The notes under the pieces: generated by a model
Databases searched by the model: none
What the model was told of the DNA's origin: nothing
Seen by the model: only the letters and a program-made list of their open reading frames with translations
Shown: positions 4,328 through 16,507 of the stretch, in pieces
How the letters are laid out: each line of letters opens with the position of its first letter
Position numbering within the stretch: position 1 is the first letter of the stretch
Made by a program: the position numbers and the translations under genes
Assembly (NCBI GenBank): GCA_903925075.1
Contig: CAIYDQ010000231.1
Coordinates: 1-32,830, forward strand
From: an uncultured Geobacter sp.
GTDB lineage: Bacteria > Desulfobacterota > Desulfuromonadia > Geobacterales > Geobacteraceae
Direction of reading: 5' to 3'
Length of the DNA: 32,830 bases

Positions 4328-5020
4328 TTAATTAGCTTCTCGTCGCCGTTTTGCCAGTTCCGCCTCGGAGGCGCGCAGGTAGGTGGGGTTCAACAGGGGG
4401 AGCGGGGTGTAGTTTCCCTGCCGGGCGGCGTCAAGCGCGATGAGCGCGCCGGCGGAGGCGCGCGGCAGATCGGCGTGCCAGGGGGCGAAGAGGGCGAGCT
4501 CGCCCAGGGTCGAGCGGATCAGTTCGCGGTAGCGGACCGCCCCCTCGCCCAGGAACAGGGTCGGGGAGTCGATGCCGGCCAGGAAACGCTCCGGCGACAG
4601 CACGGCGTCGGGGGTCGCCGCTTCCGGCAAGGCGCCGCAGCGGTAGAGCGCGGCATAGACCTCCCCCTTTCGGGCATCGAACATGGGGGCGACCGGCGCG
4701 CAGCCGAAGGGGAGGTTCATGGCGAGCATGGCGAGGGAAGAAAAGCCGACCACCGGTTTGCCGGTGGCCAGGGCCAGCCCCTTCACGGTGGCGATCCCCA
4801 CCCGGACTCCGGTGAAGGAACCGGGGCCGAGCGAGACGGCAAAAGCGTCGAGGGAGTCGGGGGTGAGGCCGGCGGCGGACAAGAGCTGGGAGATCGAGGT
4901 CAAAAGCCGCCCGGAGGCTAAGCGGTCCTCGCCCAAAAGGCTTTCGCCCAAAAGGCGCTCGCCGTCGCTGAGCGCCACGGACGAGCAGTTGCTGGAGGTG
5001 TCGATGGTCAGTATTTTCAC
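4328..5020 (-). CDS. tsaB: tRNA t6A37 threonylcarbamoyltransferase complex subunit TsaB
   Basis: This 230-aa ASKHA-fold protein starts with MKILTIDTSSNCSSVAL and carries SLGPGSFTGVRVGIATVKGLA. Both segments are diagnostic of TsaB (YeaZ), the non-catalytic partner that, with TsaD and TsaE, places threonylcarbamoyl on A37 of ANN-decoding tRNAs. The start is GTG with only a weak ribosome site, 30 bases after the rseP stop, so it is likely co-transcribed and perhaps translationally coupled. It is the last gene of the long housekeeping run; the ilvD promoter lies immediately beyond its stop, overlapping no coding sequence. Confidence 0.95.
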   Translation of the reverse strand: MKILTIDTSSNCSSVALSDGERLLGESLLGEDRLASGRLLTSISQLLSAAGLTPDSLDAFAVSLGPGSFTGVRVGIATVKGLALATGKPVVGFSSLAMLAMNLPFGCAPVAPMFDARKGEVYAALYRCGALPEAATPDAVLSPERFLAGIDSPTLFLGEGAVRYRELIRSTLGELALFAPWHADLPRASAGALIALDAARQGNYTPLPLLNPTYLRASEAELAKRRREAN

Positions 5021-5050
5021 GAAAATCCGATGGGCGGCAAGGGCCGGTTT

Positions 5051-6112
5051 TTACGCCTTGATGAACATGCGTGCGATGTCGTTGTAGAAGGCCAGCATCA
5101 TCAGGCTGATCAGCAAGACCAGCCCCACCTGCTGGGCGATTTCCCGGGCGCGCTTGCTGACCGGCCTGCCGATGACCAGTTCGATCAGGAAAAACGCCAG
5201 ATGGCCGCCGTCCAGGATCGGCACGGGCAGCAGGTTCAGCACCCCGAGGTTGACCGACAACAGCGCCACGAAGGCGAGGAAGCTGACTCCTCCCGCCGCC
5301 GCCTGCTGGCCGGCCATCTTGACGATCATGATCGGGCCGCCGATGCTGTTGAGCGGTATGGCGCGCTCCACCAGGCGGACCAGCGAGAGCGCGGTCAGCT
5401 TGATGACGTTCCAGCACTGCGCGCTTCCCCTGACCACCGCCTCGCCGGCCGGGAAATGCTCGATCACCGAGTCGCCGGAGGCCACCACCCCGATGACCGG
5501 TTGGGTGACCGTGTCTCCCAGGAGGTTCTTGGCGGTCCTGCTCTCCGGCGTCATGGTGAATTTCAGGGAAGCCGCTCCGCGCTGCACCTCGACCTGCATC
5601 GGGGTGAGTTTGCCGGTGGCCACGATCTGGGCGAAATCCTCCCAGCGGCTGACCGGCTTGCCGTTCACCGCCGTGATCTTGTCGCCGGCCAGCATGCCGG
5701 CCTTGGCGGCGGGCTTGCCGGCCAGGACCTCGCCGATCTTGGTGGTGGGGGTCGGCACCCCGACCAGGAATATGATGATGAAGATGACCCAGGCGAACAG
5801 CAGGTTGAACACCGGCCCGGCGGCGACGATCAGGATCCGTTGCAGCGCCGGTTTGTGGGCGAAGGAGCGCTGAACGTCCTCTTCGGAGAGTTCCACCTCC
5901 TCGCCCTCCCCGACCATCTTCACGTAGCCGCCAAGCGGCAGCGCGGAAAGGAGGTACTCGGTCTCGCCCACCTTTTTGCCCAGGAGCTTGGGGCCGAAAC
6001 CCAGGGAAAACTTCTCCACGCCCACGCCGAACATCTTGGCGAACAGGAAGTGACCGAACTCGTGAATGAAAATAAGAGCCCCGAGGGCGATGATGGCGAA
6101 CAGTATGCTCAT
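5051..6112 (-). CDS. rseP: RIP metalloprotease RseP (site-2 protease)
   Basis: This 353-aa integral membrane zinc protease has the catalytic HEFGH motif in its first transmembrane segment, followed by a periplasmic PDZ domain (GEVLAGKPAAKAGMLAGDK, roughly residues 110-195). The C-terminal membrane segments carry NLLPVPILDGG, the second metal-binding motif. The family performs intramembrane cleavage of anti-sigma factors and signal-peptide remnants. One PDZ domain and about 350 residues fit the shorter form of the family; E. coli RseP has two PDZ domains. The ATG at 6112 has AGGAAGGA just upstream and is preferred over the longer frame. It lies between dxr and tsaB, the standard order. Confidence 0.95.
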   Translation of the reverse strand: MSILFAIIALGALIFIHEFGHFLFAKMFGVGVEKFSLGFGPKLLGKKVGETEYLLSALPLGGYVKMVGEGEEVELSEEDVQRSFAHKPALQRILIVAAGPVFNLLFAWVIFIIIFLVGVPTPTTKIGEVLAGKPAAKAGMLAGDKITAVNGKPVSRWEDFAQIVATGKLTPMQVEVQRGAASLKFTMTPESRTAKNLLGDTVTQPVIGVVASGDSVIEHFPAGEAVVRGSAQCWNVIKLTALSLVRLVERAIPLNSIGGPIMIVKMAGQQAAAGGVSFLAFVALLSVNLGVLNLLPVPILDGGHLAFFLIELVIGRPVSKRAREIAQQVGLVLLISLMMLAFYNDIARMFIKA

Positions 6113-15029: not shown

Positions 15030-16127
15030 ATGAAGGAAGATCTCCTTTTAAGAATAATTCGTCTTTGCCGGCACCTGGACGAAACGTCGCAGGATGTGTA
15101 TCTGAAGTTTCATCGCCAGTTCAAGGAGGAGCCCCTACACTCGTTTTGGCTGCACATGTCCATCGAGGAATCTGAACACGTCAAATTTTGGCAGCGGGCC
15201 GAGCAAATAGAGGAGTTGTCGTGCCTGCCTAATTTCTTCGACGATGCCGAACAGGTGATACGGGAATTGGAGCACGCGACCCTGCGCACCAAGGAGTTGC
15301 TGCGCGGTTGCGACAAGGAGTTCACCGTGGCCGAAGCGTTCCTGATCGCCTACCGGCTGGAATTCTACCTGCTCCATTCGACCTTCAACGTGTTGTTCCA
15401 GATCTTCGGACCGGCGACCGACGGTCTCACCCCGGAAGACAACTACGAAGCGCACATCGCCGTCTTCATCACCATGCTTTCCAGCTGCGGCAGCGTGACG
15501 CCGGAACTGGAACTGCTGGGAGAAACCCTGCAACGCTTGTGGAATGAGAATAGAAAGCTGGCGCTTAGCGCAACCTCCGATTACCTGACCGGCCTCCTCA
15601 ACAGGCGCGGTTTTTTTGCGGTCGCCACCCAATTGGCCTGCCTGGCTCAAAGAAACGGCTCCTCGGTGGGGATATTGATGCTCGATATCGACCACTTCAA
15701 GGCGATCAACGACAGGTACGGACACAAAGCCGGCGATCGGGTCTTGCGCGAGATCGCCGGCCTCGTCAAGAAGTCGCTGAGAACCTCGGATCTGGTCTGC
15801 AGGTTTGGCGGCGAAGAGTTCATAGTTTTCCTGCCCGCCACCACACCCACCATGACCGCGGAAGTCGCCCAAAGGATACGGCAGGCGATAGAGAGCGCCA
15901 TCATAAACGGCATTTCACTCACCATCAGCATCGGCACCGCGGAGGGAACCGTCGGCTCGGCGCCGCGCGATCAACTGCAAAACTTCATCAAACACGCGGA
16001 CGCGGCCCTTTACCAGGCGAAAAACAGCGGCAGGAACTGCGTGGTCGACTTTGCCGGCGGTCAGACGTTTTCTTTGCGCCGAAACCAGGAGACGATCGCT
16101 TCCGCCGGTTGCGCGCCGGCGATTTGA
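15030..16127 (+). CDS. Diguanylate cyclase with probable ferritin-like diiron N-terminal domain
   Basis: This 365-aa protein has a helical N-terminal region (1-165) and a GGDEF domain (about 183-345). The active motif is GGEEF at 260-264, with an RxxD inhibitory site at 251-254. The N-terminal region has ferritin/rubrerythrin-like ligand spacing by eye: E18 in the first helix, ExxH at E47/H50 (IEESEH), E111 in a third helix (RLEFYLLH), and E140/H142 in a fourth. No signal peptide or membrane segments are seen, so it is cytoplasmic. It follows hemerythrin in the same direction. Its last 67 bases overlap the 3' end of the minus-strand thioredoxin gene. The GGDEF call is firm; the diiron domain is inferred from residue pattern. 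Confidence 0.9.
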   Translation: MKEDLLLRIIRLCRHLDETSQDVYLKFHRQFKEEPLHSFWLHMSIEESEHVKFWQRAEQIEELSCLPNFFDDAEQVIRELEHATLRTKELLRGCDKEFTVAEAFLIAYRLEFYLLHSTFNVLFQIFGPATDGLTPEDNYEAHIAVFITMLSSCGSVTPELELLGETLQRLWNENRKLALSATSDYLTGLLNRRGFFAVATQLACLAQRNGSSVGILMLDIDHFKAINDRYGHKAGDRVLREIAGLVKKSLRTSDLVCRFGGEEFIVFLPATTPTMTAEVAQRIRQAIESAIINGISLTISIGTAEGTVGSAPRDQLQNFIKHADAALYQAKNSGRNCVVDFAGGQTFSLRRNQETIASAGCAPAI

Positions 16128-16507
16128 TCCACCGTCTTCCCCTTTCGCAGCAGATGAAGGACCGGAATGCCGCGCACCGCGAAGCGCGAGGCAAGTTTCG
16201 GGTTCTCTTCGGTGTTTATCTGGATGACAGCCGCCCTTCCCGCCAATAGCTCCGCCGCTTGTCGCACCGCCGGTGCGAACGAGACGCAATGCGGTCACCA
16301 CGGCGCCCAGAATTCCGCCAGTATCGGGCCATCGAAGCGGGCGACGAAATCATCGAAGCTCCGATCGCCGACCTGCTGCGGCCGCCGGTAGAGCGCCGGC
16401 AGCAAAGCCCGGCAGTTGCCGCAGTGTCCGGGGACCCCTTCCTTTTCCGCGGGAATGCGGTTGGAGGCGCCGCATGACCTGCATTTGACCAAATATGAAT
16501 TCGGCAT
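16061..16507 (-). CDS. TrxC-like thioredoxin, probable selenoprotein (UGA at codon 71)
   Basis: The reading frame of 148 codons is interrupted once, by UGA at 16295-16297. That codon sits exactly where the first active-site Cys of WCxxC belongs: the sequence reads WAPW-UGA-PHC. The N-terminus has the TrxC zinc ribbon (C9, C12, C29, C32), and after the UGA the frame continues as a normal thioredoxin (INTEENPKLASRFAVRGIPV with the cis-proline). A hairpin with a GGC loop lies 23 bases past the UGA (16262-16278). Sec-containing UxxC thioredoxins are known in bacteria. The ATG at 16507 follows GGGGAGG. Conventional gene callers would split or truncate it. It should act as a disulfide reductase with a Sec-Cys active site. 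Confidence 0.85.
16262..16278 (-). promoter_or_regulatory. SECIS-like hairpin
   Basis: Minus-strand TCGCACC (16272-16278) pairs perfectly with GGTGCGA (16262-16268) around the three-base loop GGC. The loop begins 24 bases after the UGA and has G in its first two positions. Bacterial SECIS elements lie inside the coding region shortly after the UGA and need such a guanine for SelB binding, so position and loop fit. Confidence 0.7.

Follow-up and report, generated by a model that had tools for sequence, protein, structure and literature searches.

Does an in-frame UGA codon at the active site of a bacterial thioredoxin gene mark a broken gene, a regulated stop, or a site at which selenocysteine (Sec) is inserted? 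The question is raised by a locus in a 32,830-nucleotide stretch of DNA from an uncultured Geobacter sp. (contig CAIYDQ010000231.1, assembly GCA_903925075.1; the whole stretch is referred to here as the window). The coding strand is the minus strand, where the gene occupies 16507-16064, with its ATG start at 16507-16505 and a terminal UGA at 16063-16061. When the sole internal in-frame UGA (codon 71, 16297-16295) is read as an amino acid, the product has 148 residues and the active site WAPW-U-PHC, in which position 71 is partnered by Cys74. A first-pass annotation had placed a single UGA here in place of the first active-site Cys without stating the strand, and this placement was confirmed. 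Judged from comparative sequence analysis, the gene very probably encodes a cytosolic TrxC-like oxidoreductase, composed of a zinc ribbon and a thioredoxin domain, in which UGA71 is decoded as Sec. The support that was seen directly consists of a conserved UGA, a conserved hairpin, a complete set of genes for the Sec machinery, and a conserved fold and active site.

Conservation of the codon was followed in an order sample of 58 genomes (own genome included), in a class-level survey of 277 genomes, and in a named collection comprising the best 80 of 257 confirmed stretches, for which the search patterns favour certain conserved peptides. Of the order-sample genomes, 40 carry the UGA-bearing family, one (G044) carries a Cys version, and the remaining 17 have only thioredoxins that are more distant. 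The class-level survey matched 98 genomes at E <= 1e-30 and gave 103 rows, of which 92 belong to the UGA/Cys thioredoxin family and 11 are distant and without stops (seven were fetched, all TrxC-like). All 92 family copies were read codon by codon; raw stop counts can include terminal stops, as in G228, where one TGA was counted and codon 71 is Cys. Codon 71 is TGA in 80 copies, TGC in eight and TGT in four, so that the homologues are mostly TGA at this column and not Cys alone. Among the loci kept from the named collection, 42 belong to the family (32 with TGA, 10 with Cys codons), and the nearest named relatives include Geomonas, Citrifermentans and Geobacter. The class-level and named sets overlap and merge into 87 distinct sequences, 75 with UGA and 12 with Cys, although these relatives are unevenly related and the counts are not independent events. 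An in-frame UGA conserved where others (the 12 copies and nine outgroup rows) have Cys is one pattern by which bacterial selenoproteins are recognized.

This distribution bears directly on the possibility of a broken thioredoxin gene, its UGA being due to a nonsense mutation or a sequencing error. Such a reading could appeal to the presence of a single in-frame stop only, and to decayed or shortened copies elsewhere in the family (L156 has extra stops, and L145 is missing the first CxxC). It is opposed by the recurrence of TGA at the same codon in most family copies, by the restriction of further in-frame stops to L156 among the 87 distinct sequences, and by synonymous codons just downstream that are frozen. 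We reject it because the UGA is conserved across species, and attach almost no credence to it.

The frozen codons coincide with a predicted hairpin at 16278-16262 on the minus strand, which has the form of a selenocysteine insertion sequence (SECIS): a 7-bp stem with a 5′ arm at 16278-16272, a GGC loop at 16271-16269 and a 3′ arm at 16268-16262, with a folding energy of -9.9 kcal/mol. The first-pass annotation had described a 7-bp hairpin with loop GGC lying 23 bases after the UGA; stem length and loop held up, while the 23 bases proved to be the distance to the apical loop, the stem beginning at 16 bases. Limits for bacterial SECIS elements given in the available text of PMC13188914 are a loop of 3-9 nt with G in the first two positions, a stem of 4-16 bp, a loop 16-37 nt after the UGA, and an energy <= -7.5 kcal/mol. 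Applied by our own script rather than bSECISearch, these limits include the window hairpin, along with those of 74 of the 75 distinct UGA sequences, compared with only 2 of the 12 Cys sequences; the hairpin thus accompanies the UGA and has mostly disappeared from the sequences with a Cys codon. All seven stem pairs are kept in 73 of the 75 UGA sequences.

A single hairpin of this kind proves little. In nine open reading frames (ORFs) of the window, a hairpin within the same limits follows 286 of 4629 codons (6.2%), and one at least as stable follows 97 (2.1%). The hairpin exceeds chance because it is conserved across relatives. Under it, codon choice in the UGA sequences is frozen (Pro79 is CCG and Val81 is GTG in 75/75, Ala78 is GCA in 73/75), and at Ala85, just past the hairpin, four codons are used (24, 22, 18 and 11 times). 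Residue 80 varies between Ala, Val and Ser, which affects only loop bases in 74 of the 75 sequences, the loops being GGC (38), GGT (32), GTC (4) and GGG (1). In five sequences a paired stem change from C-G to T-A is made at the cost of replacing Arg82 with Gln. Given the peptide and the codon usage of the nine window ORFs, the probability of seven paired positions out of seven is 0.019 when G-U pairs are allowed and 0.0008 for Watson-Crick pairs only.

A search of the genome for selA, selB, selC and selD, proposed as a check on the original idea, found all four. The tRNA-Sec scores 76.7 bits and has the anticodon UCA (tca in the gene), SelA, SelB and SelD are all encoded, and the SelD gene (L128, G000:C198:26717-27634) itself contains an in-frame UGA, downstream of which lies an 8-bp hairpin whose loop is again GGC. 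Thioredoxin reductase is also encoded, and C168 (38% identity) is an ordinary thioredoxin-like match that has no stops. Across the order sample, tRNA-Sec exceeds the cut-off in 56 of 58 genomes, the other two being G029 and G031. UGA is leaky in some bacteria, and Trp or some other amino acid might be placed at the codon through read-through or in a recoded genome. Against this, a dedicated tRNA-Sec and SelB are encoded, all 12 non-UGA members and the nine outgroup rows have Cys as the aligned residue, and the gene itself terminates in UGA; on these three grounds the idea was rejected as scarcely credible. Insertion of Sec at codon 71, as first proposed, is instead favoured by the sequence evidence, with the UGA conserved, the hairpin tracking it, and selA, selB, selC and selD present.

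Two side observations concern the distribution of tRNA-Sec genes. In L049 (Geobacter sp. isolate H7geo), a tRNA-Sec at 5460-5557 lies about 40 bases downstream of the Sec-thioredoxin match at 5001-5420, on the opposite strand; the 29 further loci scanned show no such pairing. The genomes G004, G020, G024, G259, G229 and G232 each have two strong tRNA-Sec matches, scoring at least 69 bits.

Several results weigh against Sec decoding or blunt the evidence for it. The energy of the window hairpin is ordinary for this GC-rich DNA: compared with shuffled sequences, the 43- and 61-nt stretches do not fold better (z -0.57 and -0.62), and the 27-nt stretch gives z -2.09. The Rfam model SECIS_1 has no match in the genome, but none in 14 control genomes either, and no Rfam match of any kind was obtained at 16200-16320 up to E 10. 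Some members of the family depart from the pattern. UGA copy L032, whose loop is shifted, passes neither hairpin test in its written form; UGA copy L195 has 6 of 7 stem pairs; UGA copy L156 (G197), with two further in-frame stops, looks decayed; and two Cys copies retain a SECIS-like hairpin. Finally, G031 carries a UGA copy, yet its assembly has no tRNA-Sec over the cut-off.

The protein read through the UGA is consistent with a two-part thioredoxin, an assignment that draws on the reading frame, family matches, solved relatives, a structure model and relatives. The N-terminal segment at 16483-16412 has CxxC pairs at residues 9/12 and 29/32, ahead of the thioredoxin domain, and this CxxC...CxxC pattern occurs in 84 of the 87 distinct sequences, L141, L145 and L199 being without it in their aligned part. 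The segment presumably binds zinc, and its score with the zinc-ribbon Pfam model PF21352 is below the cut-off (21.7 vs 27.1 bits). The thioredoxin domain spans residues 45-142 (PF00085, E 1.9e-25, above the Pfam cut-off). The description of an intact zinc ribbon before the UGA and an intact thioredoxin fold after it was borne out for the two CxxC pairs and the thioredoxin domain. The TrxC equivalog model NF008229 gives 103.3 bits against a cut-off of 125, and for this reason the protein is best named "TrxC-like" rather than TrxC. A structure model built from 30 rows (the window and 29 relatives) has a mean predicted local distance difference test score (pLDDT) of 94.4, and in a Foldseek comparison its fold matches thioredoxin and thioredoxin-2 structures in the PDB. 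By homology, we take Pro115 to be the cis-proline position of thioredoxins. No signal peptide is seen by eye, and the protein is presumably cytosolic. At the buried-acid position, Glu is found in all 87 distinct sequences, whether Sec or Cys, and the dipeptide between the redox residues is PH in 86 of them and TH in one. The nine outgroup rows have Asp (7) or Glu (2) as the buried acid, and PH in none.

The same architecture raises the possibility of a conserved regulatory stop, with a 70-residue zinc-ribbon product as the norm and Sec inserted only when selenium is plentiful. The UGA does sit after a complete zinc-ribbon part, and Sec decoding inherently competes with termination. However, conservation extends through the whole downstream domain, with invariant columns up to Trp141 in the 30-row alignment, and in 11 of the 12 Cys copies the full-length protein is read without a stop (L145, without the first CxxC, is the other). 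Such a selenium switch is very unlikely, if somewhat less so than a broken gene or misread codon, and full-length translation with Sec71 is the reading carried forward here.

Changes between Sec and Cys were traced with residue 71 masked, on a 79-row tree that comprises an earlier set of 71 distinct sequences minus the decayed L156, plus nine outgroup rows; L173-L200, fetched later, are not part of it. An earlier 70-row tree gave three Sec/Cys changes, and the 79-row tree, with a nearer outgroup, calls for at least four, as do its well-supported branches. At the site, all nine TrxC-like outgroup rows have Cys, in CGPC, CGYC or CGHC. The best reading of the tree would be one Cys-to-Sec origin followed by three Sec-to-Cys reversions, with many forks unresolved and the direction of change resting on outgroup and parsimony. 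One putative reversion is a clade of ten sequences, none of which falls within the SECIS limits, though L055, L062 and L064 keep 6 of 7 pairs. The other two, in G259 and G044, are single Cys copies amid UGA siblings, each with a SECIS-like hairpin. L147 (G259) has TGT at codon 71 and a hairpin of -10.4 kcal/mol, and represents either a Sec-to-Cys change of very recent date or an error in the assembly. The G044 copy (L145:1880-2250), with a hairpin of -8.7 kcal/mol and without the first CxxC, may be a decaying gene. Of the 12 Cys genomes that were checked, G231 and G234 have neither tRNA-Sec nor SelA and the other 10 have both, so that the loss of Sec was mostly confined to this protein. Together, the Sec and Cys orthologues, with the two Cys copies that retain a SECIS-like hairpin among them, form a natural series for asking what a thioredoxin gains from Sec and why Sec is abandoned.

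In the scheme that we infer for Sec insertion, electron donor and substrates, SelB carrying Sec-tRNA(UCA) would bind the hairpin starting 16 nt past the UGA and deliver Sec at codon 71, the N-terminal nucleophile of the U-P-H-C redox pair. The Sec71 selenolate would attack disulfides or other oxidized substrates, the intermediate would be resolved by Cys74 as a selenenyl sulfide, and the Sec-thioredoxin would be re-reduced by thioredoxin reductase or another thiol system. A more oxidizing or isomerase-like role is possible by analogy, since UPHC resembles the DsbA motif and its histidine recalls the CGHC of PDI. The available text of the respective sources gives the DsbA motif as CPHC (PMC3526497), sharing PH with the present protein, and the PDI motif as CGHC (PMC12781119), sharing the histidine before the second redox residue. 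The likeness to PDI and DsbA extends to Glu in an EF-x-APW context; unlike them, the present protein has no visible signal peptide, has a zinc-ribbon-like part, and has Sec. The lowest E-value among PDB sequences belongs to a PDI A4 fragment (3idv, 1.7e-30) and sums two domains (60.1 + 47.3 bits), and the best whole-length match is thioredoxin 7ysi (92.6 bits). Thioredoxin 2 (TrxC NF008229; 2ppt, 3p2a, 7ysi) likewise has CxxC pairs ahead of the thioredoxin domain and matches over nearly the whole length, whereas the present protein differs in having Sec in place of Cys, a PH dipeptide flanked by the redox residues, and Glu as the buried acid. Much more tentatively, a thioredoxin-2-like protein might have been rebuilt around selenium at the base of the lineage, acquiring a DsbA-like PH and acting in the cytosol as a more oxidizing or isomerase-like enzyme rather than a general disulfide reductase, with at least three later returns to Cys; we hold this to be possible rather than probable. 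If true, it would make Sec/Cys exchange in one enzyme traceable in both directions.

Sec-containing thioredoxins are not themselves new. In the available text of PMC1794560, UxxC thioredoxins of Geobacter, predicted since the mid-2000s, appear as "thioredoxin" for G. metallireducens, G. sulfurreducens and G. uraniumreducens, and Table 1 of this 2006 survey shows dashes for thioredoxin in the Sec/Cys conversion columns; GSU3446 is named among selenoproteins in Table 1 of PMC1914089. Like the present protein, these are thioredoxin homologues with an in-frame UGA from the same bacterial group, compared here by description rather than by sequence, and the portions of PMC1794560 and PMC1914089 available do not mention a zinc ribbon. 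They are probably orthologues of the present family, because this family is the only one with a stop among the matches to the present protein in the 58 genomes. None of the best 80 of the 257 named-collection stretches comes from a record named G. sulfurreducens. We take WP_010956703.1 to be the Treponema denticola thioredoxin with Sec32, presumably a short protein that, unlike the present one, lacks an N-terminal zinc ribbon. As in the present protein, its Sec comes first in UxxC, according to the available parts of PMC13188914 and PMC9312934. The first-pass suggestion that a zinc-ribbon TrxC architecture with Sec is less often described therefore needs qualification: Geobacter UxxC thioredoxins were already published, and no published zinc-ribbon or TrxC-type Sec-thioredoxin was found in a literature search that omits most subscription journals. 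Less ordinary are the combination of a zinc-ribbon architecture with UPHC and the putative Sec-to-Cys reversions. The gene is also a clean example of one that would be truncated at its UGA by standard gene calling.

The surroundings of the gene add minor features. A ribosome-binding-like stretch, GGGGAGG, lies upstream of the ATG at 16519-16513 on the minus strand, and AGGAGG-like stretches precede the ATG in many of 30 related loci examined. ORF clustering of the neighbourhoods of 42 named loci and the window, which contained many antisense frames and for which Pfam was run on 10 window ORFs only, revealed no recognized redox partner among the 25 clusters listed. A polysaccharide deacetylase gene upstream is common to the window and 12 named loci, and no function is drawn from the neighbourhood. 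On the plus strand, a GGDEF diguanylate cyclase gene (15030-16127) overlaps the Sec-thioredoxin gene tail to tail, the two sharing their 3′ ends at 16061-16127.
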